In this document: in pieces, positions 665 to 29,086 of the stretch
How the letters are laid out: every line of letters starts with the position of its first letter
Numbering within the stretch: position 1 is the stretch's first letter
Program-made: the position numbers and the translations under genes
Notes under the pieces: model-generated
Told to the model about the DNA's origin: nothing
What the model saw: the letters and a program-made list of their open reading frames with translations, nothing else
Database searches by the model: none
Source: Candidatus Sabulitectum sp.
GTDB taxonomy: Bacteria; Fermentibacterota; Fermentibacteria; Fermentibacterales; JCC-6
Length of the DNA: 33,052 nucleotides
Direction: 5' to 3'
Assembly (NCBI GenBank): GCA_029938555.1
Contig: JAOZUR010000017.1
Coordinates: forward strand, 1-33,052

Positions 665-1627
665 TTATCTAAGTAGTTCGGCAGTGGCTGCAAAAACAGA
701 ATCAGGTCTGTCTACAACAGTGACTCCGGCACTTAGAAGGGCTTCTTTTTTAGCTAAGTATGTCTCATTTTTATTTCTTATCATGGCACCTGCATGGCTC
801 TGACTAACGCCTGCCTCGGTGAACTTACCACCAAGAAAAACTACAACTGGTTTAGTTATTTTACCATTCTTTATAGCTTTAGCAAGATCATTTTCTTGAG
901 TTGTGCCTGTTTCTGCATAAATCACCATGATTTTTGTTCTAGGGTCAGCTTCAAATGCTTTTGCAGCATCTAAAAGAGTTATTCCGGGAACAGGGTCACC
1001 TCCAACGCAGAGTACGGCAGAAAGCCCCGGATAATCCTTTCCCCATAGAGGACCAAAAGAGCCATCCGACTTAGGTCCAGGCAAGAAGGGTCTGCAGTGG
1101 AATGATGCGAGAAGTTGGCTTAACCCACCAGAGCGACTTATTACCCCTACTTTTCCAGGAAGGTAATTCTTTTTTGCCCAAGAGCTTTTTCCGCCAATTA
1201 AACCAAATAGGTATCCATCAGTATCAAGCATACCAACAGTGTTTGGTCCAAGACATTTTGCACCGGTCTCAAAAGCTTTTTCTTTGATTTTTATGGAATC
1301 GTGGGTGGCTACACCATCAGCAGTAAGAACAAGAAATTTAATACCTGCATCCATTGCATCAAAAGCAGCTTGTGCTATTGCTGCCGCTGGAACAAAAAAT
1401 ACTGCAGAGTTTATTTCAGGGTGAGCTGCAACCGCTTCGGCAGCTGTACTGTACACAGGAGTATCATCAACTTCCATACCACCTTTGCCTGGGGTGGTAC
1501 CAGCAACTATGTGTGTGCCAAAGCCTCTCATAAGTCTTGATCGACTTTTACCCTGACGCCCGGTGATTCCAAAAACTAACACTTTAGGTATATCAATGTT
1601 GCACAGGTATTTTAGTATACCAGCCAT
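665..1627 (-). CDS. Succinyl-CoA synthetase alpha subunit-like (CoA-binding/ligase) protein
   Basis: VFGITGRQGKSRSRLMRGFGTHIVAGTTPGKGG CoA-binding motif, GPNTVGML, PGKVGVISRSGGL, and conserved SHAGAM containing the phospho-His position. Confidence 0.85.
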   Translation of the reverse strand: MAGILKYLCNIDIPKVLVFGITGRQGKSRSRLMRGFGTHIVAGTTPGKGGMEVDDTPVYSTAAEAVAAHPEINSAVFFVPAAAIAQAAFDAMDAGIKFLVLTADGVATHDSIKIKEKAFETGAKCLGPNTVGMLDTDGYLFGLIGGKSSWAKKNYLPGKVGVISRSGGLSQLLASFHCRPFLPGPKSDGSFGPLWGKDYPGLSAVLCVGGDPVPGITLLDAAKAFEADPRTKIMVIYAETGTTQENDLAKAIKNGKITKPVVVFLGGKFTEAGVSQSHAGAMIRNKNETYLAKKEALLSAGVTVVDRPDSVFAATAELLR

Positions 1628-3090
1628 TAGAGAACCTCCCCTGGAAGATCTAGTTCAATTGTAAGCTCTCCATTACCATTAAGAAGTGAAACTGTTTCAC
1701 ATACCAAACATCCAATACATTTTGCATCAGGATTTGCTGTAATTCTGTTATTTTCCCACATGAGGTATTTAGTTGGACAATGTTTTATACAAACAGGTTC
1801 TTTAAAATCAGGATTTTTATCTGGATGATAAATAAATCTTGCTGGAGGGGTTTTTAACTCAAAAGCAAGTTCTCCTGCCGGTGGGGAAAAATTCTGCTTC
1901 ACCCTCTGTTCAGTTGCGATTTCTGCAAGATGTTCAACCATGGCGTTTGGAAATATTTCTGGTTCGAATGTTTTTACCTGAACCGGCAATTGTTCATCTA
2001 CCGTTTTAATAAGATTTATGGCCTTTTCCTGATCAGTTCCACCGAATCTAAGAAGACAGGGAAGAGGAGTACTTGATTCTCTAAGTGCTTTCCAAACAGC
2101 TGAAGCTAGATGATACTGGTTTTGAAAAGCCATTCCACTACCAGTAAGAATTAATACTTGAGCATCAGGTTGACTCATTATGGCTCTTAATATTCTGTAA
2201 CTTTTGAAACCGCTGAGCCCGCCGGAGGTATCACTTTCATTCAAAGGAAAAATGTCTTTTCTACCACCAATAGCCATTTCCCAGAGCATTTTGCCACCAC
2301 CACCACAAAGATTTGTTGCAACTTTAATGGCTGCTTCTGGTGCTATTTCTCGGGAAGATCGAAAGAATCCAGTTCCAGCAGGATCATCTGCATTGATAGC
2401 TTCTACAAGTATTTCAAGATTAGTTTTATTGCCACTAGTGGTTTCCGGTAACTCGAAAAGCTCAGAATTTTTTTTGGAAACTGCTTGTTGTTCAAATTCA
2501 GCACGACAGTCCACAGCAAGAAGCGAATCGTCCTGAAGAACTGCCATGGGATTTATCTCTAGTACTGTGAGTTTGTAATCAATAAAAGTAGTTATCATTT
2601 TCTGAAGAAAATCTGCCACATCATTTAAATTAGGTAGATCAGATATTTGTTTTTTTATGTCTGAGGTAGAAGGTGGATTAAGCAAACTGAAGCGTATTTT
2701 GTGTAATGAATCTGTTCTAGCTTCAATCCCTGAACCGCCCTCAGTGCTGAGCAACAGAACGCCTCCGGCAAGGTTCTCGCCATCACCGAAATCAAGCAAG
2801 CAGGCAGCGTAATACTCTTTTTTTATATCAACTGCTTGAGCTATTAGCACACCCTGGCAATTTTTTGCTTCAAGTAGTTCATTAAGACCATTGGTTATCT
2901 CATCAGTAGTTGAAGCTTTTCTAACAAGACCAAGAGCAGCACGGCTTGTTGCTCCTGGGATTTGAGCCTTCAAAAAAACAACTGGTTCAGGAAGATCAAT
3001 AGGTATTTTTTGGCAAAAAATAGCAGGAACCATGGGTACACCATGATTTTCAAGTAATACCCTTGTTTTGTACTCTGGCAGAGCTGGCAT
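1627..3090 (-). CDS. Succinyl-CoA synthetase beta subunit-like ATP-grasp protein with C-terminal FixX-like ferredoxin domain
   Basis: ATP-grasp/ligase features (LLLSTEGGSGIE, VLEINPMAVL, CLLRFGGTDQEKAINLI) plus a C-terminal extension CIKHCPTKYLMWENNRITANPDAKCIGCLVCE resembling FixX/ETF-QO ferredoxin (CP..Y ... C.GC..C). 487 aa, against about 390 aa for canonical SucC. Confidence 0.8.
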   Translation of the reverse strand: MPALPEYKTRVLLENHGVPMVPAIFCQKIPIDLPEPVVFLKAQIPGATSRAALGLVRKASTTDEITNGLNELLEAKNCQGVLIAQAVDIKKEYYAACLLDFGDGENLAGGVLLLSTEGGSGIEARTDSLHKIRFSLLNPPSTSDIKKQISDLPNLNDVADFLQKMITTFIDYKLTVLEINPMAVLQDDSLLAVDCRAEFEQQAVSKKNSELFELPETTSGNKTNLEILVEAINADDPAGTGFFRSSREIAPEAAIKVATNLCGGGGKMLWEMAIGGRKDIFPLNESDTSGGLSGFKSYRILRAIMSQPDAQVLILTGSGMAFQNQYHLASAVWKALRESSTPLPCLLRFGGTDQEKAINLIKTVDEQLPVQVKTFEPEIFPNAMVEHLAEIATEQRVKQNFSPPAGELAFELKTPPARFIYHPDKNPDFKEPVCIKHCPTKYLMWENNRITANPDAKCIGCLVCETVSLLNGNGELTIELDLPGEVL

Positions 3091-3091
3091 A

Positions 3092-4144
3092 TTAATCTCC
3101 TTTATTCTTCATTTTTTTTAGAAGCTCATCTGTTCGTTTTACCCCTTTTACCCAGTCAAGAGCCACGGGAACTTTAAGGGAATAAAGATAATTGTATTCA
3201 GGATAACAGGAAGCTGTACACGAATTGCATGGTAACTCTCTATTATTGAGATATTTAAAAGCTTCCTTAAAACCACCGTTTAGTGCATTTTTTGCACCAT
3301 CATATTCACCAATCAGCAATGAACACGGGTATACGGTGCCATCCACATCAATGTTACAGTAAGCATGACCTGCCTGGCAAGTGGTTCCATAAAATTTTTC
3401 GATGATTCTTGTTTTGGAATAATCTTTCCATCTGGAAGCTGCCTTTAAGTAATTATTACTTAAAATAATTGGGGCACCTGCTTTTTTCATATCTACAAGT
3501 TTCTTGAAGGCTTTGGAATACTCTTCAGCAGATGGCATCATGTCAGAAGTATTACCGCCAAGTGTATCATTGTGATGAAGGGTCTGAAAAGATGTCATAA
3601 AACCGTATTTATCGGCAGTAGACATTATTTCATCAAGAAGGAAAATGTTGTTTTTTGTTAAAACAGTGATTGACCATAAACGCACTTTGCCAGATGCCGC
3701 TTCAAAAGCTGCCATTACTTTTTTCCAGCTGCCTTTTTCTCGATTTTTGTCATGTGCTTCCTCGGGGCCATCGTAAGAAAGAACTAGATGATCAATATTA
3801 TCAAGAATTTCAGGTCTTGATGGAATAAAATAACCGTTTGAGTCAAGACTCACATACAATCCCAATTCTCTTGCGTAAGAACAAAGTTCAACAATATCTT
3901 TTCTGGCAAGAGGTTCACCGCCCCAAACACCAATGCGCATTGTGCCAGCATCGGCCAGTTGACGGAAAATGTCTTTCCATTGTTCAGTTGAAAGATCAGG
4001 TCTGCACCGCGATGGTATCTGACAGTAAGAGCATCTACTGGGACATCTATCGGTGACTGAAACCATAACATTTAGCGGAATATTAGCACCCATTCGGCAT
4101 CTTAAAGCTCCAATGCCCATCTTCGCCTGTCCGGCAAAATTCAT
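3092..4144 (-). CDS. Radical SAM/SPASM domain protein
   Basis: CPSRCSYC (CxxxCxxC) radical SAM motif, GVWGGEPL, and C-terminal SPASM-type Cys pattern CQAGHAYCNIDVDGTVYPC...CNSCTASC. Confidence 0.88.
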   Translation of the reverse strand: MNFAGQAKMGIGALRCRMGANIPLNVMVSVTDRCPSRCSYCQIPSRCRPDLSTEQWKDIFRQLADAGTMRIGVWGGEPLARKDIVELCSYARELGLYVSLDSNGYFIPSRPEILDNIDHLVLSYDGPEEAHDKNREKGSWKKVMAAFEAASGKVRLWSITVLTKNNIFLLDEIMSTADKYGFMTSFQTLHHNDTLGGNTSDMMPSAEEYSKAFKKLVDMKKAGAPIILSNNYLKAASRWKDYSKTRIIEKFYGTTCQAGHAYCNIDVDGTVYPCSLLIGEYDGAKNALNGGFKEAFKYLNNRELPCNSCTASCYPEYNYLYSLKVPVALDWVKGVKRTDELLKKMKNKGD

Positions 4145-5160
4145 TTTTCCTCCGGTTTACCTTGCCACTGAGGGCCGTAAGGTAAGCTATTTTTCCATTT
4201 TTCAGCTTCTTTTTTCTGACCAAATATGGAATATGATAAATTATACCAGTGTTTTGCACCAGTTTTCATAATGCCAATGAAAGGACCATCTACTTGAGAT
4301 CCTTCTTTTTTTCTATTTCCCCTGATTTTCTTTTCAACTTTTGCTACAAAGTTTGGTTCAGCTAATTTAAATTTGAAGGATGGAATGCTTTTGAGTGGGG
4401 GTAGACATACATTTTCTATATCTATACAGGAACCAACCTGTCCATTACCTTTTTGAATGGTTTCTACAGATTTTGGATTAATGCCCATAACTTTTGCTAT
4501 AGAAGCATCCATGGCAACTGGATCTGAAGATAACGCCAAAAAGTCAGTTTTTTTGGGAATACCTGGTTTGGGCCCAGACCCTTCCAAGCTTACAGTTCCA
4601 TCAGCGAGTATGAATTTTACAGGTATAGCCTTATTTACCGCAACAACATAATCTGCCAATCTGTGATGATAGTTATGTCTTCCATCATTAAGGCAACCAT
4701 ACAAGTGTTTCATAGCAATGGAAATTACAGATCTGTAATGTGTTTTTACAACAGGCAAAGAAATTACCGGCATCCTGGTGCAAATTTCAGGAATGCCGAA
4801 TGTTAGACCGTCTACAGTAACTTCTTTCCAGGTATTTTCACTGAAATTGTGCCAGATCAGCCCCTGTCTTTTTACAACGGCATCCATTCTTTGAACGCGA
4901 AGGGCTTTGGTTGCATTCACAAGAACCTGATTTGATTCTCCTATATAAATCTGCCCTGTGTGTGCTTTTAGCCTTTTACTTAGTGCTTCTACCACCCATG
5001 GTGAAGTATTTACCCCAGGGCGAAGATAGTCCCAAGTTAAATTTACTTTAAGTAATACATCCTGACCCTTTGGAAGAAATTCCTTCCAATTAAAATTGTC
5101 TAGAAGTTTTCCAACTGCGTTATCAACACCTTCAATAGACGATGCATAAAATACTTTCAT
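4141..5160 (-). CDS. DUF362 domain-containing protein
   Basis: DVLLKVNLTWDYLRPGVNTSPWVVEAL, ISLPVVKTHYRSVISIAMKHLYGCL, DFLALSSDPVAMDASIAKVMG are typical DUF362 motifs. Overlaps the downstream radical SAM start by 4 nt (ATGA). Confidence 0.8.
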   Translation of the reverse strand: MKVFYASSIEGVDNAVGKLLDNFNWKEFLPKGQDVLLKVNLTWDYLRPGVNTSPWVVEALSKRLKAHTGQIYIGESNQVLVNATKALRVQRMDAVVKRQGLIWHNFSENTWKEVTVDGLTFGIPEICTRMPVISLPVVKTHYRSVISIAMKHLYGCLNDGRHNYHHRLADYVVAVNKAIPVKFILADGTVSLEGSGPKPGIPKKTDFLALSSDPVAMDASIAKVMGINPKSVETIQKGNGQVGSCIDIENVCLPPLKSIPSFKFKLAEPNFVAKVEKKIRGNRKKEGSQVDGPFIGIMKTGAKHWYNLSYSIFGQKKEAEKWKNSLPYGPQWQGKPEEK

Positions 5161-5317: not shown

Positions 5318-5950
5318 ATGAAAAAAATGATACTTTTTCTTTTGATGATTTTCGCAACCGTCTCATTTGCTGCAAGGCTCGAGATCACGAATGATACAGG
5401 AAGTTATTCGTTCTATTATGTGAATATATCTTCTTCTTCTTCAGATTCTTGGGGTGATGACAAGTTAGGTTCAAGTGAAACAATTAGCGCTGGTGATACT
5501 CGTTCTTTTAGACTTAACAGTGGAACTTACGATGTTAAGATAGAAGATGAAGATGGTGATGAGTATATTTTCTGGGATGTTGAAGTTAGTGGTACTGTAG
5601 GTCTTAATGTTGACCTAGGCAATATTGGCGAACAGTACTGGGGTGGCGGTTCTTCACTTCCAAGTAATCCAAGTAGTGGTGGTTCAGCTCCTATAACAAT
5701 CGAAAATGATCTTGGCAGTTGGACAATTTGGTATATCCATGGTAGCCCTGTTGATGCTTCATGGGGTGAAGATCGTCTTGGTTCAGAGCTTCTTGATCCA
5801 GGAGAGTCATTTACTTTTTATGTAAACGCTGGTGAAAACTATGATCTGAAATGTGAAGATGAAGATGGAGATACCTACACACTTTGGGATGTTTATGTTG
5901 GATCTGATGGTTTCTACTGGAGTGTAGAACTTAGCGACATGGATAATTAG
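5318..5950 (+). CDS. Secreted protein with two tandem copies of a ~75 aa domain
   Basis: Signal peptide MKKMILFLLMIFATVSFAA. Internal duplication: ITNDTGSYSFYYVNIS...DSWGDDKLGSSETISAGDTRSFRLNSGTYDVKIEDEDGDEYIFWDV versus IENDLGSWTIWYIHGS...ASWGEDRLGSELLDPGESFTFYVNAGENYDLKCEDEDGDTYTLWDV. Confidence 0.8.
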   Translation: MKKMILFLLMIFATVSFAARLEITNDTGSYSFYYVNISSSSSDSWGDDKLGSSETISAGDTRSFRLNSGTYDVKIEDEDGDEYIFWDVEVSGTVGLNVDLGNIGEQYWGGGSSLPSNPSSGGSAPITIENDLGSWTIWYIHGSPVDASWGEDRLGSELLDPGESFTFYVNAGENYDLKCEDEDGDTYTLWDVYVGSDGFYWSVELSDMDN

Positions 5951-7232: not shown

Positions 7233-8468
7233 CTATAGATCCCAATCAAAAGAAGGCTCTGGCAGAATAAGTGTTTTATCCAGCTCTTCTAACAAGGAAG
7301 AGGGTGCCACAATATCCTCTGTGAATGGAAGCATTGAGGGTTTTGTTGTTCCAGTCCATAGTTTTGAAAAGGTATTAACAGAACATTTCATAACTGGTAG
7401 TCCGGCAGTGGTACCGTATTGGGCTTTTGATTGACTCGAGAATTTAACGGTGTATTCGCCGCCACATCCTCTCCATTTAAACGATGAATTAAGGTATTTT
7501 TCAATAGGATCAGTAAGGATCAGATTGAAATTGCACTCTTCTCCAATGCAATTCATTCCATTTATACATTTCTCAACATCTAAAATTCTTCCCTGGGACC
7601 AGCTTCCTGTTCTAATTTCAGCCTTGCGCCCAGTTGAGTCGGCACTCTGACGATTGGTTGAGATGGGCTTGCGGAGTAATGACTGAAACTGAATACCATA
7701 AGGTTCCGGCAAACTCACAATATCTATCTGATCTCCATATGATTTAATTGAAAGTAGAATGTCTTTGAATTGATCCGGTGTTTGGAAGGCCATCCAGATA
7801 ATGTTCATTGGTCCGTGTTCTCCGTTGACGGATCTTACCACATAATGATGAGTCAGTTCTCCATTCTCATTTTTAAAACCAATTGCAAATGTTTTTTTGT
7901 TAATTTCCATATCAGCTTGGGTTATCACTGCTGGAAGATTTACTGAGCCGTGATTGCGAAATCGATTGATTCTGCTCTGGTGTATATCTTGCCAGTTTTC
8001 TTTTCCGAGCCTGATCGGATCTGACGAAAAGGATCCGGATAGTTTTAATTTAGATGGTCTGAATTTAACAATTCGTGAATACGGATAATTTGCAAACCCC
8101 AGTCTGTCGTAAAACCCCTGCTCAAACATTCCAAGCCCGGCGAAGGCTTCACCTCTTTCTGCACCGCGAGCAAGAAGCTCTGCTGTAAGCCTGCCGGCAA
8201 ACCCAAGTTTTCTTCCATGTAGGGCAACTGTTACTGCGGATATAACGCAGAAGGAAATGTCTTGTGAATGAGCAGCATGGTGGAAAGTACCAGAGTGAGC
8301 CAGAGCCAGTGCGACTACATCATTAATATGCTCTCCAACAAGAGCGTCAGCAGAATCAAACCAGAGATTTGCTAGTTTTTCTTGACCGTTCATAAGCCAT
8401 CCAACATCGGTCCAGATGGAAATGCATTTCTCAAAATGTTTTTCTTTATTGTAAAGAATACCACGCAT
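7233..8468 (-). CDS. GNAT/Eis-like acetyltransferase family protein
   Basis: ISFCVISAVTVALHGRKLGFAGRLTAELLARGAERGEAFAGLGMFEQGFYDRLGFANYPYSRIVKF resembles Eis-type GNAT proteins. 411 aa total fits the multi-domain Eis architecture. Confidence 0.65.
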   Translation of the reverse strand: MRGILYNKEKHFEKCISIWTDVGWLMNGQEKLANLWFDSADALVGEHINDVVALALAHSGTFHHAAHSQDISFCVISAVTVALHGRKLGFAGRLTAELLARGAERGEAFAGLGMFEQGFYDRLGFANYPYSRIVKFRPSKLKLSGSFSSDPIRLGKENWQDIHQSRINRFRNHGSVNLPAVITQADMEINKKTFAIGFKNENGELTHHYVVRSVNGEHGPMNIIWMAFQTPDQFKDILLSIKSYGDQIDIVSLPEPYGIQFQSLLRKPISTNRQSADSTGRKAEIRTGSWSQGRILDVEKCINGMNCIGEECNFNLILTDPIEKYLNSSFKWRGCGGEYTVKFSSQSKAQYGTTAGLPVMKCSVNTFSKLWTGTTKPSMLPFTEDIVAPSSLLEELDKTLILPEPSFDWDL

Positions 8469-8509
8469 GTTAATACCCCTAGTTTGTTTGAGTTATGCAA
8501 ATATAACGA

Positions 8510-8540
8510 AAAAGGGCCATAGCTTTCGCTACGACCCTTT
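8510..8540 (-). terminator. Terminator immediately after tRNA-Leu
   Basis: Minus strand AAAGGGTCGTAGC-GAAA-GCTATGGCCCTTT followed by TTCG. Long stem with a GAAA tetraloop. Confidence 0.7.
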
Positions 8541-8626
8541 GGTACCGTGGGGGGGACTTGAACCCCCACAAGGTTTCCCTCACTAGGTCCTGAACCTAGC
8601 GCGTCTGCCAATTCCGCCACCACGGC
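8540..8626 (-). tRNA. tRNA-Leu (anticodon CAG), 3' CCA encoded
   Basis: Minus strand GCCGTGGTGGCGGAATTGGCAGACGCGCTAGGTTCAGGACCTAGTGAGGGAAACCTTGTGGGGGTTCAAGTCCCCCCCACGGTACCA: acceptor stem, anticodon stem CTAGG/CCTAG with loop TTCAGGA, long variable arm, GGTTCAAGTC T-arm. Confidence 0.95.
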
Positions 8627-8710
8627 TTCGTGTTTCACAGGGGCAATTATGCTAAAACCCGTGCAAAAGTCAATCCCCCCTGATATATTCCCCCCATAGA
8701 AGGGAAACAT

Positions 8711-9181
8711 ATGACTGAAAAAATACGAGTTGTTGCCAGAAACAGAAGAGCCCGCCATGATTATCACATAATTGAGTCTATTGAGATGGGGTTGGTTCTT
8801 GTAGGAAGTGAAATCAAATCAATTAGAGCCGGAAAGGTCAGCCTTGTAGGAGCTTATGCGCAATTTGATGATGATCTGGAGCTTTGGGTTTACGGAATGC
8901 ATATAGCTGAATACCCTGAAGCGAGAGATAATCATGAACCAGAAAGAAAGAGAAAACTACTTGCCCACTCTAAAGAATTAAAAAAAATTAGAAGAAAGGT
9001 TGAAGAAAAAGGAATAACCTTAGTTGCTCTTGATGTTCATATTTCCGTAGGAGGTAGGGCAAAAATCCAAATTGGGTTATGCAAAGGTAAAACTAAGTAT
9101 GACAAAAGATCTGATATGGCTGACAGAGATAGTAAACGAAGAATAGATGCTGTTTTGAAACATTCCTTGCGAGAGTCATGA
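8711..9181 (+). CDS. smpB: SsrA-binding protein
   Basis: ARHDYHIIESIEMGLVLVGSEIKSIRAGKVSLVGAYAQF, HSKELKKI, KIQIGLCKGKTKYDKRSDMADRDSKRRID. Confidence 0.95.
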   Translation: MTEKIRVVARNRRARHDYHIIESIEMGLVLVGSEIKSIRAGKVSLVGAYAQFDDDLELWVYGMHIAEYPEARDNHEPERKRKLLAHSKELKKIRRKVEEKGITLVALDVHISVGGRAKIQIGLCKGKTKYDKRSDMADRDSKRRIDAVLKHSLRES

Positions 9182-12735: not shown

Positions 12736-12924
12736 GTATAAATAGATGTTACACTTAGACATTCTATTTAATTGCATTTGGCGTAAATAAGTGTGTTGAA
12801 TTAAAATAATCCAAGTAAATTTTGTAAATTAAACATATATCTTCTCTTGACGAACTGCTAAAAAAATTTTATCATTATTGAATCAAATCTTTCGTTGTTA
12901 CTTTTACTTGCGCATGGGGGTATA

Positions 12925-15900
12925 ATGAGTGACATGGGTAAAACAAAAACTCAACTAATCCAGGAATTGGAAGAGTTGCGTAAGGTGATTCACGATTCTC
13001 ATCCTTCTGGTATACATTCAGACACATCCGAAAAATCTGTCATTCACAATACTATGATGCTTAACAATATTTTGCGAAACTCCAAAGATGTTGCTATTAT
13101 AACAACAGATACTAATATGATTATTTCAAATTTCAATCCTACTGCGGAAAAGATTTTTAAATATTCAGCAGATGACGCTATAGGGAAATCAGTATTTGAA
13201 GTACATAAGACTAAAGGTGTTTCCGTAAGTGGATTCGAGCAAGCAATCAAAATAGTACGGGAAAAGGGTGAATTCAATCACTCTTTGATGCTCGAAGTCA
13301 AAGGCGAACCTCATTATTATAAAAGCAGATTTTCAACCATTGTTGACAAAGATGATACAATTGCTGGTTTTTCCCTTTTCTTAACAGATGACACTCACAA
13401 GGTAAATTCTAATAAAATACTTGAAGATAGTATATCTTTGTTGAATGATTCTCAAGCTATTGCTCATCTTGGAAGCTGGGATCTTAACTTGGTTACGAAT
13501 GATCTAAATTGTTCTGATGAGGTATATCGTATTTTTGGCTTAGAGCCACAAATTATACAAGCAACTTATGAAATGTTTCTCAGTTATATACATCCAGAAG
13601 ATAAAGATAAAGTAAATAGTATTTTTTTGAATTCAATAACAGAAGAAGAAGATTCGTATAAGATAGAACATAGGGTCATTCAATATGGTACTGGAGCAAT
13701 CAGAACTGTTTTAGAACAATACAGACATGAAAGAGACACAGCCGGAAATGTTGTTAGATCTATTGGTTCAATTATCGATGTGACAGAAGTAAAAAGAACA
13801 GAGCAAGCACTTCTTACTAGTAGGGAAAAGTATAGCAATCTTGTTGAAAATCTTAGTGACTGGGTTTGGGCAGTGGATACCAACGGTGTACATATATTTA
13901 CTAATTCAGCAATACATAAGATTTTAGGATATGATGTTGATGAAGTGCTTGAGGAATCTGCTTTCCCAATGATGCACCCTGATGATTTAGAAGCTTCACA
14001 AAAAATGGTTTCAGAATGTGTAAAAAATAAACATGGTTGGAAAAATGCTGAAATCAGGTGGCTTCATAAAAATGGCTCTATTCGTACTTTTGAAAGTTCG
14101 GCTGAACCTCTGTTTGATTCTTCAGGTGAAATTGTAGGGTTCACAGGGGTAGATCGAGATATTTCAGAACAGAAAAATACCGAAATAGCCTTAAGAAAAT
14201 CAGAATTGGACCTTAGGACATTGTTTAATGCCATGACTGATATTGTTTTTGAAATGGACTATGACGGAAAATACATAAACATTGCACCCACATCTCCAGA
14301 TTTAATGTATAAACCAGCAGATAATTCAGTTGGAAAAACTCTTCATGAGGTTTTTCCAAAATCAGTTGCTGATGAATTTTTAACTTTCATTCGCAAGTGT
14401 ATAGACACAAATAAAACTCAGAAAATAGAGTATCCACTTTGGGTGAACGATGAAACAGTTTGGTTTGAAGGAAGAGCCACTCCTAAAACAAGTAATTCAG
14501 TTTTGTATATTGCCTCTGATATTACAGTTAGAAAAAAATTAGAAGAGAAGGCAAAACACAGATTGATATCACTTACGCAACCCAAGGTTGATTTAGGCGA
14601 TCTTCTTCTTACTGATATCCTTGATATTGATTTATTGCAAAAAATGCAGGATTCATTCGCAGAAGCTTTTAATATGCCATCTATTATATATGATATTCAT
14701 GGTGCTTATATAACTCAACCTTCTAGGTTTACCGCTTTTTGTAAATTGGTTCAAAGCACAGAACAAGGTTTAAGTAAATGTGAACAACATGATGGAAAAC
14801 TAATGCAGAATCTACGAGAAAATCACGAGCCTGGAATTCGAAAAAAGTGTGTTCTTGGTAATCTTGTAACCGGTTCAGTTCCTATTATTATCCAGGGGCG
14901 TCATCTTGCTAATTGGGGAATCGGTCAGATGATTAGTAAAGATTTGGATGTAGATGAAATTAAACATTACGCAAATGAAATAGGTGTTGACTGCGATTTA
15001 CTGCTAGAGGCTGCTAAATCACTTATTTTAATAGAGGAGTCGTCTCTTGAATCTGCTGTTAAATTTCTCACAACTCTTTCCAATTATTTGAGTTTGTTGG
15101 GTTTACAAAATCTTCAGCAAGCACGAGATATTTCAGCACGAGATATAGCTGAAACTAGTCTGTTAAGAGAGCGTAGATTGTTTGTCTCAGGTCCAGTTGT
15201 TGTATTCCGATGGAGGGCACAAGACGGTTGGCCTGTTGAATATGTTTCACCTAATGTTAAAAACATTTTTGGTGTTGCTGCAGAAGATTTCTTGTCCGGA
15301 AAGATATCTTTCTCTTCAGTTATTTACCCTGATGATCTACAGCAAGTTTCAAATGAAATAACAGAATACACAAGTGCTAATGCAAGCTCATTTGAACAAG
15401 AGTACCGAATAGTTCGTGCTGATGGTGCAATACGCTGGTTGTATGATTTTACAACTGTTACCAGAGATGAAGGGGGCGTTGTAACACATTTCGAGGGCTA
15501 TATTCTCGATATCACTGACAGTAAGCAGAATAGGGTTGAGCGCGAGCGTCTTATGCAGGCCATTGAACAAGCTGCAGAAACAGTGGTTATTACAGATATT
15601 GATGGTAATATCGAGTATGTGAATCCCGCATTTGAAAAAATAACAGGGTTTTCTAAGGAATTAGCCATCGGTCAGAATCCCCGAATTCTAAACAGTGATA
15701 CACACGATGATTCATTCTTTAAAGAATTGTGGGAAACCATTACAGCAGGAAAAAACTGGAGTGGTCAAATTGTCAATACTAAAAAGGATGGTTCTCTTTT
15801 TACAGAAGAGGCAACAATTTCGCCTGTTAGAAATCAATCAGGTGAAATCATTAATTATGTTGCAGTCAAACGCGATATTACCACGGAAGTAAAACTTGAA

Positions 15901-17043
15901 GAACAATTGCGCCAGGCGCAAAAAATGGAAGCAATCGGCCAACTAGCCGGAGGAGTTGCACACGACTTCAACAACCTTCTGCAGGTAATAAACGGTTATA
16001 CTGAACTTGCACTTGAGGGAATTGATTCAAGTCATTCTGCTTTTCAATTTATCACAGAAGTTGCCAATGCAGGCGAGCGTGCAAGAACCCTTGTGAGTCA
16101 GCTGCTTTCTTTCAGTCGCAGACAGATAATTAATCCAACCGACCTTGATCTTAATCACATTACCGAGAACCTGTTAAGTATGATAAGAAGAGTTATCGGA
16201 GAACATATTGTCTGTGATTTTGTATCAGGCCATGAGCTTGGAACTATTCATGCAGATTCAGGTCAGGTGGAGCAGGTTTTAATTAATCTTTGCGTAAACT
16301 CCCGAGACGCATTACCAGACGGTGGTAGAATAACCATTGAAACAGGAAATGTTTTTATCGATTCTGAATACGCGAATGTACATCCATGGGCTAAGCCTGG
16401 TCGTTATGTTCTTTTATCAGTATCAGATAATGGACTTGGGATAGAAAAAAACAAGCTTAATCACATTTTTGATCCATTCTTTACTACAAAATCTGTTGGT
16501 AAGGGAACTGGTCTTGGTTTGTCAACTGTTTATGGTATTATAAAACAGCATAATGGTGATATACAGGTTTACAGTGAAATAGGGAAGGGAACAGTATTTA
16601 AGATATACCTTCCAGTTGTAGAAAGAAAAGCATCAACAATTTCTCATATACTAAAAAGTCCAATCATTGGTGGGTCTGAAAGTATTCTTATTGCAGAAGA
16701 TGATGAAATGGTTAGAAATCTCAGTAGGCAAACATTGATAATGGCTGGTTATACGGTAATTGAAGCAAAAGATGGAAAAGAAGCACTTAATCTATTTAGG
16801 AAATATACTGATAAAATTTCACTTTTGTTTCTAGATGTAGTAATGCCCGAACTTGGTGGTCGAGAGGTTTTTGATACAATTCAAAAAACCCACCCTGATG
16901 TTCCTGTTTTGTTTTGCAGTGGTTACAGTCAAAATGCAGTTCATAAAGGTTTTATTCTTGATGATAGTCTTAATTTTTTACAAAAACCATACGGACCAGA
17001 TCTTTTGTTGCGAAAAATAAGAGAAATTCTTGATTCAGAATAA
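12925..17043 (+). CDS. Hybrid sensor histidine kinase with multiple PAS domains, a PocR-type sensory domain and a C-terminal receiver
   Basis: Repeated PAS/PAC motifs; PocR-like region [62 protein letters not shown]...[34 protein letters not shown]-box [17 protein letters not shown]; HATPase N/G boxes; receiver [13 protein letters not shown]...[13 protein letters not shown]. Start set at ATG 12925 because of the upstream GGGGG; the ORF track uses 12895. Confidence 0.9.
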
Positions 17044-17079
17044 TGATAATCAAAATAGAATTGTGAGGCGAATTGTATA

Positions 17080-19740
17080 ATGACCGTTAAGAACCGCACT
17101 CCTGATAAATCCATAATTATAACCGATCTTGAGTTGCGATTACTATCTATCAATAGATCTGCACTTGACTTGTTTGACTTAACTGAAGGTTATTTAGCAG
17201 AAATGACAATTCACGATTTATTAATTAATTACGGCTTAAAACCAGATGAACTCACAATTGCCCTTGATTTAGATGATAATCAAGAAAATTACTCTTTCCG
17301 ATTTGATATGGTATTAGAGAGTAGCGAAAAAAATCTTGATATTGAAATTGAAGTGCTTTATAACTTTGCTGGAAAAAAAACTGGTTACTCAATGCGTTTA
17401 GCAGAAGTATTTAAACCAGACATGGTGAACAAAATAAAGAATACTGCACTTAGTGAACATAATCGATTTGTAACTGTGATGGATTCACTTAATGCGATTG
17501 TTTATGTAACCGATATGAATACAGATGAAATTTTGTTTACTAATAAAAAAGTACGAGACATATTCGGTGATGTTATCGGTCAAACATGCTGGAAAGTTTT
17601 ACAAACTGAGCAGACTGGCCCTTGCAGTTTCTGTACAAATCATAAACTTTTAGACAGTACTGGTAAACCGGTTGAATCTATCGTATGGGAATTTCAAAAC
17701 ACAAATGATGAACGCTGGTATCAGTGTAAGGATCAGGCAATTATATGGCCTGACGGACGGCTTGTACGAATAGAGATTGCTACGGATATCACTGAAAGGA
17801 AAATGGCAGAAGATGATCTTAGGTTAGAAAAGAGACGGTTGAATGATATTCTTACTGCGACAAATGTAGGCACTTGGGAGTGGAATATTCAAACGGGTGA
17901 ACTAGTATTAAACCAACGGTGGGTTGAAATGCTGGGTTATACACTTGAAGAACTTTCACCTATTTCTATAAATACTTGGAGTGAATTTGCTCATCCTGAA
18001 GATCTTTTAAAAGCTAATGAGTTACTTAAGAAGCATTTCAATCAAACTCTTGAGTATTATGACTGCGAAGTTAGGATGAAACATCGGAATGGAAACTGGG
18101 TTTGGGTTCTTGATAGGGGTAAGGTTCTTTCTTGGAGTACTGAAGGTAAACCTTTGTTGATGTATGGAACTCATTTGGAAATTACAAACAGGAAAAATAC
18201 TGAAATAAGTCTTCGCAGGAGTGAAGAAAAATCTTTTGCTTTGCTCAATGCAACTACAGATATTGCATTGCTTATTGATAAATCGGGTTTAATCATTTCT
18301 GCCAACACAGCCGCCGCAGAATATTTTAATAGTACCCCACAGGATTTGCTAGGCAAATTACCATTTAATTTCGATTTTGATCCTGCAGTGAAAAATTTTA
18401 GACTGAAAAAACTACGAGAGGTTGTTTCAAGCAAAAAACCTGCAAGGTTTGACGATGTAAGTGGTACAAGTTTTTTTAATACTTCATTGTATCCAATCTT
18501 AGATAATTCCGGAGAAGTTAGTCTTATTGCTTTGTTTGCTCGTGATGTTTCCCGAAAAATGCTCGATATTAATAAAATAGAAATGCGGGAGAAGTATTTG
18601 ACGGGGTTAAACAAATCTGCTCAAATTTTGTTGCGGTTTACTTTTCAGATTCCTTTCCAGGAGTTTTTGGACTGTATCGGTCCAGCAGCTAATGCTAGTC
18701 GCACATATCTTTTCATGAACCACACTGGGGTTAATGGTGAGTCTCTTATGAGTCAGAAAGCAGAGTGGTGTGCTGAAGGTATTCCTCCTGAGATAGACAA
18801 TCTTGTTTTACAAAATCTTTCTTATGACCAATGGCTTCCTAGGTGGATGGATATTCTAGAAAAAGGAGAGCTTGTAAACGGTCGAGTTGCTGATTTCCCA
18901 GAAAGTGAGCGTGCTGTACTAGAACCACAGGGTATTCTTGCAATTCTTATCATACCCATTTTGATTGAAGGGGATTTTGTAGGATTTATGGGTTATGATA
19001 ACTGCATTTCAGACAGAGAGTGGGATTCTGTAGAGCAGACCTTTCTTCGAACAGCTGCGAATAACCTTGCTCAGGCAATTAGGCGATCAAAAGCTGAGGC
19101 CACAGTAAGATCCTCTTTGAAAGAAAAAGAGTTGCTTCTTCGAGAAATCCATCACAGAGTAAAAAACAATATGCAAGTTGTAACAAGTTTACTTAATCTT
19201 CAGGCGCGTAAAATGACTGAAGGCGAAGCTCTTGATGCAATTCGCGAGAGTCAGAGACGGATCAGTACCATTTCTCAAGTTCATGAAGCGTTGTATTTAT
19301 CAAATGATTTGAGTAGAATTTCAATGGATAAATATTTGACAGGTGTTCTTTCGCAAATCGTTAGTCTTTATCTTGATAGTGAAGATAAAAATACAGTAAG
19401 ATGGAGTGTAAACGCAAGTAATATTACTTTACCCATAACTGATGCAATACCTGTAGGTCTTATTGCAAATGAGTTAGTTACAAATGCATTCAAACATGCC
19501 TTTCCAGATGAACAATTGGGTTTTGTTCGAATATTTATGCGTGAAGCAAGCAATGGCATGATTGAGTTAATTGTTGCTGATGACGGTGGTGGAATACTCA
19601 CTAGCACCGATTTAAATAGTGCAAAAACTCTTGGCTTACAGATTGTTAACAATCTGGTGAAAGTACAACTTGGTGGAACTATCACTATAGATTCGTTGGT
19701 AGGATTAGTATTCCGAATAATGTTCAAGCCATCTTGCTAG
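17080..19740 (+). CDS. PAS/GAF sensor histidine kinase with HisKA_2 (LREIHHRVKNN) domain
   Basis: PAS repeats, a PAS with Cys motif TCWKVLQTEQTGPCSFC, a GAF-like region, LLLREIHHRVKNNMQVVTSLLNLQAR and an HATPase domain NELVTNAFKHAF. Confidence 0.88.
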   Translation: MTVKNRTPDKSIIITDLELRLLSINRSALDLFDLTEGYLAEMTIHDLLINYGLKPDELTIALDLDDNQENYSFRFDMVLESSEKNLDIEIEVLYNFAGKKTGYSMRLAEVFKPDMVNKIKNTALSEHNRFVTVMDSLNAIVYVTDMNTDEILFTNKKVRDIFGDVIGQTCWKVLQTEQTGPCSFCTNHKLLDSTGKPVESIVWEFQNTNDERWYQCKDQAIIWPDGRLVRIEIATDITERKMAEDDLRLEKRRLNDILTATNVGTWEWNIQTGELVLNQRWVEMLGYTLEELSPISINTWSEFAHPEDLLKANELLKKHFNQTLEYYDCEVRMKHRNGNWVWVLDRGKVLSWSTEGKPLLMYGTHLEITNRKNTEISLRRSEEKSFALLNATTDIALLIDKSGLIISANTAAAEYFNSTPQDLLGKLPFNFDFDPAVKNFRLKKLREVVSSKKPARFDDVSGTSFFNTSLYPILDNSGEVSLIALFARDVSRKMLDINKIEMREKYLTGLNKSAQILLRFTFQIPFQEFLDCIGPAANASRTYLFMNHTGVNGESLMSQKAEWCAEGIPPEIDNLVLQNLSYDQWLPRWMDILEKGELVNGRVADFPESERAVLEPQGILAILIIPILIEGDFVGFMGYDNCISDREWDSVEQTFLRTAANNLAQAIRRSKAEATVRSSLKEKELLLREIHHRVKNNMQVVTSLLNLQARKMTEGEALDAIRESQRRISTISQVHEALYLSNDLSRISMDKYLTGVLSQIVSLYLDSEDKNTVRWSVNASNITLPITDAIPVGLIANELVTNAFKHAFPDEQLGFVRIFMREASNGMIELIVADDGGGILTSTDLNSAKTLGLQIVNNLVKVQLGGTITIDSLVGLVFRIMFKPSC

Positions 19741-19785
19741 TTTTAATAGAATAGATTATCTTATATAGATAACTAGGGAGGAATA

Positions 19786-21333
19786 ATGCATAAAGCAAAA
19801 ATTATGATTGTAGAAGATGAAGGGCTTGTTGGGCTTGATATCCAAAGCAATCTTCAAGATCTAGGATACAAAGTTACACCTGTTTTTGCTGATGCAAATG
19901 CCGCAATTTTGTATTTGTCAGAAGAACATGTGGATCTAGTTCTTATGGATATTCATCTTAAAGGGCAGCTTGACGGAATTGATGCTGCTAGAACCATTCG
20001 CGAACGATTTGATATACCTGTTCTATTTCTCACTGCTTTTGCAAATAATGAAGTTATTCAACGTGCAAAAGGAGTTGGAGCTTTCGGATATTTATTAAAA
20101 CCATTTAAAGCTAAAGAACTTGAGGTTATGGTTGAGATTATTTTTTCGAAACACAAAGTAGATAAGAAAAATGCTATCGTTAATAACCAATTGCATCGAG
20201 CACAAAAATATGAAAGCCTTAGACTTATGGCAGGGGGCGTTGCTCATCAGTTTAACAATAATCTTCATGCAGTTCTTGGAAATCTTTCCCTTGTTTTAGA
20301 GGAGTTGCCTGCAGAATCTCATGCAAGGATTGGTTTGATTGAAGCAGAAAAGGCCGCCTGGAAAGCCGCTGAGTTAAGCAAACAGATGTTAGCTTTTTCT
20401 GGGCATGGGCATGTAAATACAACAGAGCTTGATGTTAGTAAGTTTATCTCTCAGTTAAAGCATTTATTGAAATCTTTAACTTCTGATTCAGTTTTTATTG
20501 GTTACGATCTTACTGACGACTTGCCTTTCATTGTTGCAGACCCAGGGCAATTGAAACAGGTTATTTTTTCACTTGTAATCAATGCAACAGAGGCAATTAA
20601 TAAAACTAGTGGTATAATCTCTGTAAAAACCGGTTTAATTTATTGTGATGCTGAATTTTTATCACCCATTCGCTATAATCAGTTTCTTGATGAAGGCTAT
20701 TATGTTTATATTGATGTCATAGATACAGGTCATGGAATGAGTTCCAGTACCATGCAACAGGTGTTTGACCCATTTTTTTCCACTAAATTTATCGGTCGCG
20801 GTTTAGGATTACCATCATCTTTAGGGCTTATTCAGGCACATAGAGGAACCATTAAAATTTTAAGTACTATGGGAAAAGGAACTTCAGTTAAGGTGTTAAT
20901 TCCTGTTGGAAAAAATCAGAGTGATCATATCGAAAAACTAGTAAACAGTACAAATAGTCATACCACAGTAACAGGAACTATTCTGTTAGTGGAAGATGAA
21001 GATATTGTAAGCCAGGTTACCCGTACAATGCTTGAAAAACAAGGTTATAAAGTGCTTGATGCTGTGAACGGATTTGATGCTGTAAATATATATCGTGAAA
21101 AATCAGAAGAGATTGTATTAGTATTGCTTGATAATACAATGGCAGGAATGTCAGGTGAAGAAACATTTAAATCGTTAAAAGAAATTAATCCTGATGTATT
21201 AGTTATTCTTAGTAGTGGGTATGGCCGGGAAGAGGCTACTCAGAAATTTGCAGACGGTGATCTTGCGGGATTTATACAGAAACCATATAACTTAAAAACA
21301 CTGATAACATCACTACAAAAAGTTCTTAGTTAA
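19786..21333 (+). CDS. Hybrid histidine kinase with receivers at both ends (REC-HisKA-HATPase-REC)
   Basis: N-terminal REC IMIVEDEGLVGLDIQ...LVLMDIHL...FLLKPF-type; kinase core GGVAHQFNNNLHAVLGN...DPFFSTKFIGRGLGLPSSLGL; C-terminal REC ILLVEDEDIVSQV...LLDNTMAGMSGEE...QKPY. Confidence 0.88.
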   Translation: MHKAKIMIVEDEGLVGLDIQSNLQDLGYKVTPVFADANAAILYLSEEHVDLVLMDIHLKGQLDGIDAARTIRERFDIPVLFLTAFANNEVIQRAKGVGAFGYLLKPFKAKELEVMVEIIFSKHKVDKKNAIVNNQLHRAQKYESLRLMAGGVAHQFNNNLHAVLGNLSLVLEELPAESHARIGLIEAEKAAWKAAELSKQMLAFSGHGHVNTTELDVSKFISQLKHLLKSLTSDSVFIGYDLTDDLPFIVADPGQLKQVIFSLVINATEAINKTSGIISVKTGLIYCDAEFLSPIRYNQFLDEGYYVYIDVIDTGHGMSSSTMQQVFDPFFSTKFIGRGLGLPSSLGLIQAHRGTIKILSTMGKGTSVKVLIPVGKNQSDHIEKLVNSTNSHTTVTGTILLVEDEDIVSQVTRTMLEKQGYKVLDAVNGFDAVNIYREKSEEIVLVLLDNTMAGMSGEETFKSLKEINPDVLVILSSGYGREEATQKFADGDLAGFIQKPYNLKTLITSLQKVLS

Positions 21334-28759: not shown

Positions 28760-29086
28760 ATGAAAATTGTTTTTTTTGTATTGGGTCTTTTATCAGTATT
28801 AAGCTGGGCTTCATCTACAAGCGCAACAGTAGAGATAAAGAATTGTACATCCACTGAGTTTTATTTTGTATGGGTAACAGAATCAGGCAGAGAAAAGTGG
28901 ATTGATATGCTTGGACTTTCCGTTCTTCCACCGGATAGTTCTGCAATTTTTCAGGTAACCGAAGGATGGTATGACTTTAGAATAGAAGATAACCAGTGGA
29001 GATCATTTTCATTCTCAAATATTCCAATTGAGGGCGGTACCAGCTTTTTGTGGGAAGTATTTCCAGTACACCAAGATTCTGATTAG
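28760..29086 (+). CDS. Small secreted protein, single-domain relative of the 5318-5950 protein
   Basis: Signal peptide; VEIKNCTSTEFYFVWVTESGREKWIDMLGLSVLPPDSSAIFQVTEGWYDFRIEDNQWRSFSFSNIPIEGG follows the same pattern as the two repeats in 5318-5950. Confidence 0.7.
   Translation: MKIVFFVLGLLSVLSWASSTSATVEIKNCTSTEFYFVWVTESGREKWIDMLGLSVLPPDSSAIFQVTEGWYDFRIEDNQWRSFSFSNIPIEGGTSFLWEVFPVHQDSD

Follow-up and report, generated by a model that had tools for sequence, protein, structure and literature searches.

Why should the beta subunit of an acid-CoA ligase end in a ferredoxin domain, and which acid would such an enzyme activate in Fermentibacterota, a little-known bacterial phylum? The question is raised by a locus on contig JAOZUR010000017.1 of a Candidatus Sabulitectum species (assembly GCA_029938555.1, 93% complete), of which the first 33,052 nucleotides, hereafter the window, were analysed. 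The open reading frame at 1627–3090, for which the preliminary description gave no strand, is real, lies on the minus strand, encodes 487 amino acids and contains the motif CIKHCPTKYLMWENNRITANPDAKCIGCLVCETVSL that had been quoted from it. It belongs to a minus-strand run of genes in the order DUF362, radical SAM, beta, alpha, in which adjacent genes overlap or nearly abut. The features of this run are as follows.

4141–5160, minus strand: DUF362 protein, at the head of the apparent operon.
3092–4144, minus strand: radical SAM protein with a Cys-rich C-terminal region (sub-threshold SPASM), accessory.
1627–3090, minus strand: predicted beta subunit (487 aa) of an NDP-forming acid-CoA ligase, ending in a ferredoxin domain.
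2542–3081, minus strand: ATP-grasp_2 nucleotide-binding domain of beta, residues 4–183.
1891–2418, minus strand: CoA-ligase/acid-binding domain of beta, residues about 225–400.
1630–1899, minus strand: ferredoxin domain of beta, residues 398–487.
1777–1779, minus strand: codon of Cys438, the CP cysteine, a predicted ligand from its invariance (position computed from the ORF).
1699–1719, minus strand: codons 458–464 (CxxCxxC), with Cys458, Cys461 and Cys464 as predicted ligands from their invariance (position computed from the ORF).
665–1627, minus strand: predicted alpha subunit, SucD-like and CoA-binding, 320 aa, with the SHAGA phospho-His and ETG Glu motifs.

The radical SAM gene is found directly upstream of the beta gene in 30/30 Fermentibacterota loci, and the alpha gene directly follows beta in 28 of the 30, the remaining two loci ending inside beta. 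DUF362 is seen in 23/30 loci, and several of the others are truncated where the locus or contig stops. DUF362 was dropped as a functional clue, as the paper found says of it only that it belongs to the same Pfam clan as the LarA superfamily, and uses it there as an outgroup (PMC11770544). Elsewhere in the window, a tRNA-Leu (CAG) at 8540–8626 on the minus strand is confirmed by ARAGORN and Rfam and is overlapped by a spurious ORF at 8390–8767. Three large signalling proteins, which by eye comprise PAS-type sensor kinases and a response-regulator hybrid, lie in series at 12895–21333. Two small, apparently secreted proteins at 5318–5950 and 28760–29086 look alike by eye (YDVKIEDEDG and YDFRIEDN motifs), and a similar sequence is held by another locus (L119:570-1583).

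The alpha-beta pair is very likely an active NDP-forming ligase, predicted to work through a phospho-His intermediate, because its ATP/Mg residues and alpha motifs are conserved. The ATP-grasp_2 domain of beta scores 47.6 bits against a Pfam cut-off of 29.5; K41, E178 and N180 are invariant, as is D194 just past this domain, and by motif equivalence to E. coli SucC we take these four residues to be the ATP/Mg site. CoA_binding, Succ_CoA_lig and Ligase_CoA are all above the Pfam cut-offs in alpha, whose SHAGA and ETG motifs are kept in 27/27. Both succinyl-CoA synthetase (SCS) and citryl-CoA synthetase (CCS) work through a phosphorylated His on alpha. The preliminary description had called the protein an SCS beta-like subunit; the likeness to a CoA-ligase beta subunit holds through ATP-grasp_2, but the protein is not a canonical SCS. 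SCS is the best NCBIfam family for both subunits, with scores far below the cut-offs of the curated models TIGR01016/TIGR01019 (78.2 against 370 bits for beta, 201.4 against 336 bits for alpha), and beta lacks any Ligase_CoA (PF00549) match with E ≤ 1. The nearest PDB sequence and fold match of beta is Thermus SCS, and its fold matches are SCS, CCS and ACL. The full-length beta model is locally confident, with a domain placement that is off the crystal structures (rmsd 11–13 Å).

A real ferredoxin-type domain is present at the C-terminus of beta, as had been proposed. Taken singly, the protein of the window is weak evidence for an iron-sulfur site, because its 4Fe-4S profile scores are sub-threshold (Fer4_10, E 0.047), and it is the comparison of relatives that settles the matter. 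Without exception, C438, C458, C461 and C464 are kept in the full-length Fermentibacterota beta proteins (28/28) and in a further alignment of 28 rows, among them four metagenome-assembled genomes (MAGs) from outside the phylum, while the mean identity of the domain is only about 58% across aligned relatives. Homologues lacking these Cys residues, which would have spoken against the proposal, were thus not seen among full-length relatives. Every PDB sequence that a profile of the domain matched at E ≤ 0.01 (11 of 11, best E 1.3e-7) is an iron-sulfur or electron-transfer subunit. These matches, together with the invariant Cys, rule out that the Cys motif arose by chance or through a frameshift. 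The domain model (pLDDT 84) has a ferredoxin-like fold that superposes on the clostridial 2[4Fe-4S] ferredoxin 1fca at 1.8 Å over 35 residues, with a weak E of 0.096, and its Foldseek E-values are all above 0.01.

Eight Cys are present in the corresponding pattern of L027, L028 and L029, from other families within Fermentibacterota: CxxCx4Cx3CP...CxxCxxCx3C. Ferredoxins with two clusters bind one through Cys I–III of the second motif and the CP Cys of the first, and the other through Cys I–III of the first motif and the last Cys of the second. The window's beta keeps exactly Cys I–III of the second motif and the CP Cys, while three of the other four ligands are gone and Cys434 is what remains of the fourth, from the lost cluster. 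As L027–L029 keep all eight, beta would have lost the ligands of just one of the two clusters, which is the pattern expected of a functional single cluster. We therefore predict, with good confidence, that the domain binds one [4Fe-4S] cluster, most likely the remnant of a two-cluster ferredoxin. The domain had also been likened to FixX/ETF-QO. This stands for the ligand topology (the CP Cys plus CxxCxxC) but not at the family level, as neither FixX nor ETF-QO gives a Pfam match; of the profile searches that had been proposed, ATP-grasp_2 is above its cut-off, Fer4-type profiles are sub-threshold and FixX is negative. FixX homology was set aside on these grounds, and the resemblance is one of topology rather than of demonstrated descent, because the profile and fold matches point to other iron-sulfur subunits.

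The same fusion of ligase and ferredoxin was found in 31/42 Fermentibacterota genomes, where weaker matches are SucC-like proteins. A scan of GTDB species genomes, keyed on two conserved peptides and therefore blind to more distant relatives, added four copies in MAGs labelled Phycisphaerae (two), Myxococcota and Riflebacteria, which are 57–59% identical over the whole protein. Besides the known copy, no relative of the fusion was found in 393 Planctomycetota genomes. One Planctomycetota locus (L091:134-2661, minus strand) encodes a 29% identical SCS-like pair without the Cys domain, in which the beta subunit is 504 aa long with a different C-terminal extension and, judged by its acid-binding loops, seems to stand between SCS and the ferredoxin-bearing ligase family. 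No published description of an SCS-ferredoxin fusion was found in the open literature (most subscription journals lay outside this search), and the arrangement is apparently undescribed so far. All of the material consists of MAGs, so that the absences reported here may reflect gaps.

What, then, does the ligase do? We tentatively favour a citryl-CoA-synthetase-like enzyme in a split, ATP-linked route of citrate cleavage or synthesis, with citrate or a close analogue as the acid, and put our confidence in each of these two statements at somewhat below even. Alpha (665–1627) and beta (1627–3090) would together form an NDP-forming acid:CoA ligase that operates via the phospho-His on alpha and catalyses ATP + citrate + CoA <-> ADP + Pi + citryl-CoA. 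A separate lyase would interconvert citryl-CoA and acetyl-CoA + oxaloacetate, namely a CitD-CitE fusion in Fermentibacterota and a citryl-CoA-lyase-like neighbour in the Myxococcota and Phycisphaerae MAGs. In the synthetic direction, citrate would be made and ATP recovered, feeding aconitase-like and IDH-like enzymes toward 2-oxoglutarate. Standard free energies put the overall citrate reaction near equilibrium. The ligase may run synthetically, as neither fold of citrate synthase turned up in the window's genome: the citrate synthase fold was found in 0/13 genomes of the genus, and no Re-type citrate synthase is evident, given that the genome shows only one weak HMGL-like match.

The link to a lyase comes from two kinds of evidence. 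The first is co-occurrence. The CitD-CitE fusion of Fermentibacterota (~400 aa) consists of an HpcH/HpaI domain and an N-terminal ACP domain, with the acyl-carrier Ser present in 17/18. Among the 24 genomes that are at least 90% complete, 18 have the ligase together with this fusion and six, spread over four genera, have neither, with no discordant genome (Fisher p 7e-6; p 9e-5 over all 42 genomes), although the p values overstate independence because the genomes are related. For citrate synthase and ACD, no comparable correlation with the fusion ligase is seen. A role as a substitute for an acetate-forming ligase (ACD) was rejected on this ground and on the presence of acetate kinase in the window's genome, in which no ATP-grasp_5/ACD match was found. 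At one locus viewed (L140:6550-7752, minus strand), the CitD-CitE fusion, which is apparently unusual, has no other recognised cit genes beside it.

The second is gene context outside the phylum. A conserved cluster in MAGs labelled Myxococcota and Phycisphaerae (L065:136-9453 and L067:5-9456) has the order IDH-like, HD, aconitase-like fusion, HacA-like, HacB-like, citryl-CoA-lyase-like, beta, alpha, which suggests horizontal transfer of a whole pathway, unless the MAGs are misbinned. Its lyase-like protein is of the citrate-synthase superfamily, with citryl-CoA lyase as best NCBIfam match (180–185 bits, below cut-offs); its IDH-like gene is closest to homoisocitrate/isopropylmalate dehydrogenase types, and its aconitase fusion is HacAB-like. 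All genes of the cluster except the citryl-CoA-lyase-like one have an orthologue in the window's genome, where the IDH-like (72% identity) and HD (59%) genes follow one another in the same order and both aconitase-like sets are 51–67% identical. An HD-domain protein beside an IDH-like gene, a pairing kept across phyla, is also seen at L117:7029-8841 (minus strand).

In the acid-binding domain, the Citrate_bind profile PF16114 reaches 17.4–20.4 bits against a cut-off of 26.8, with matches in 3/12 members. Several observations count against citrate. The similarity of this domain is weak and about equal to SCS (E 0.0021) and ACLY (E 0.0038). The citrate contacts of human ACLY, N346, T348 and R379, are replaced at the aligned positions of beta by A/G, Q and F. 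In addition, both candidate lyases score below their NCBIfam cut-offs, the proposed partners are scattered in Fermentibacterota rather than placed in one operon, and the radical SAM and DUF362 neighbours are left unexplained by a citrate role.

In a first alternative, the ligase would activate another hydroxy- or tricarboxylic acid (e.g. malate, citramalate, homocitrate or methylcitrate), the CoA ester then being split by the CitE-type lyase. The substrates of CitE-family lyases also include malyl-, methylmalyl- and citramalyl-CoA, and after citE the CitD-CitE fusion scores next best with the RipC and malyl-CoA lyase models. The dehydrogenase type, a second aconitase-like enzyme that goes beyond the need of a plain citrate route, and the missing ACLY contacts would fit as well. 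However, the fusion is matched clearly best by citE (253 against 182 bits for the next, below curated cut-offs), citryl-CoA lyase is the best model for the alternative lyase, and citrate is the sole substrate common to both. We regard this alternative as unlikely.

A divergent SCS beside a 2-oxoglutarate (or other 2-oxoacid):ferredoxin oxidoreductase, with the domain exchanging electrons while succinyl-CoA passes between the enzymes, appears rather improbable. The closeness of both subunits to SCS by profile, and of beta by PDB sequence and fold, is what this reading would predict; a second ATP-grasp_2 protein was not found in the window's genome, the L065/L067 cluster can also be read as TCA-cycle genes, and PorD-type ferredoxins are among the weak fold matches of the domain in a genome that holds four POR_N proteins. 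Against it stand the equivalog scores and the missing Ligase_CoA of beta described above, the second, SucC-like protein that the genomes of many relatives keep besides the fusion, and the strict co-occurrence with a CitE-type lyase and the citryl-CoA-lyase-like neighbour, which a divergent SCS fails to predict.

For the citryl-CoA-synthetase-like ligase that we favour, the cluster is dispensable for the ligase/citrate chemistry itself. The preliminary description suggested that ligase chemistry is coupled to an electron-transfer step or redox sensor; this is a guess, because no ligase reaction considered here needs electrons and the copies outside the phylum keep the domain without a radical SAM neighbour. 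The cluster might serve as a docking site for, or a sensor of, the part of metabolism run by ferredoxin-linked 2-oxoacid oxidoreductases, a doubtful proposal that we prefer on the weak hint of the PorD-type fold matches and the POR-type proteins. That the domain feeds the radical SAM enzyme, or that this enzyme modifies the ligase within a cofactor- or protein-modification operon, is very unlikely: the gene is constantly adjacent in Fermentibacterota and encodes a CxxxCxxC motif with conserved C-terminal Cys, and radical SAM enzymes require low-potential electrons, but the four copies outside the phylum keep domain and alpha without such a neighbour (one is cut by a contig end) in genomes that hold only distant radical SAM matches (23–34% identity). 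A more speculative extension of the favoured route, which we consider quite improbable as a whole, is that in Fermentibacterota without citrate synthase the CitD-CitE fusion joins acetyl-CoA and oxaloacetate, the ligase yields citrate and ATP, and the cluster gates the step by ferredoxin redox state; the product of the fusion would be citryl-CoA, or citryl on its own CoA-like prosthetic group.

If the favoured reading is right, the succinyl/citryl-CoA ligase superfamily gains an iron-sulfur-bearing subfamily, and the anaerobic fermenters of a whole phylum could get from acetyl-CoA and oxaloacetate to 2-oxoglutarate with no citrate synthase, the ligase perhaps replacing part of the missing step. 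Two unrelated lyase folds would then appear to serve one type of ligase, and the four Cys make redox control of a CoA ligase a directly testable question.

Comparison with known systems places the domain nearest, by profile, to electron-transfer subunits of the HycB/FdnH/ArrB/NrfC type. These and PorD share CxxC-x4-C-x3-CP ... CxxCxxCxxxC with the eight-Cys outgroup members, along with profile and fold similarity, whereas the window's domain is fused to a ligase and keeps the ligands of one cluster. FixX and ETF-QO have in common with it a single cluster built from a CP cysteine and CxxCxxC, but match by no family profile, and by fold through one Fix/EtfABCX chain (E 0.28). SucCD shares the two subunits, the ATP-grasp beta, the CoA-binding phospho-His alpha and the Mg/ATP residues; it lacks the ferredoxin domain, its acid-binding loops differ, and the window's family stands apart in score and in context, with radical SAM or citryl-CoA-lyase-like genes nearby. 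In citrate lyase, CitF is the classical partner of CitD and CitE; the co-occurring counterpart in Fermentibacterota has the two subunits fused, the acyl-carrier Ser conserved, and no citF or other cit gene recognised adjoining in the loci viewed. Hydrogenobacter CCS and ACLY belong to the same superfamily and fold (6hxq_B, ACLY), and the GGG, GS..F.N and RxGG loops of ACLY are resembled by those of the window's beta, which differs in its replaced citrate contacts, sub-threshold Citrate_bind score and added ferredoxin domain. The L065/L067 cluster, with a separate citryl-CoA-lyase-like gene beside the ligase, mirrors the CCS/ACLY-like split, whereas Fermentibacterota would use a CitE-fold lyase instead.
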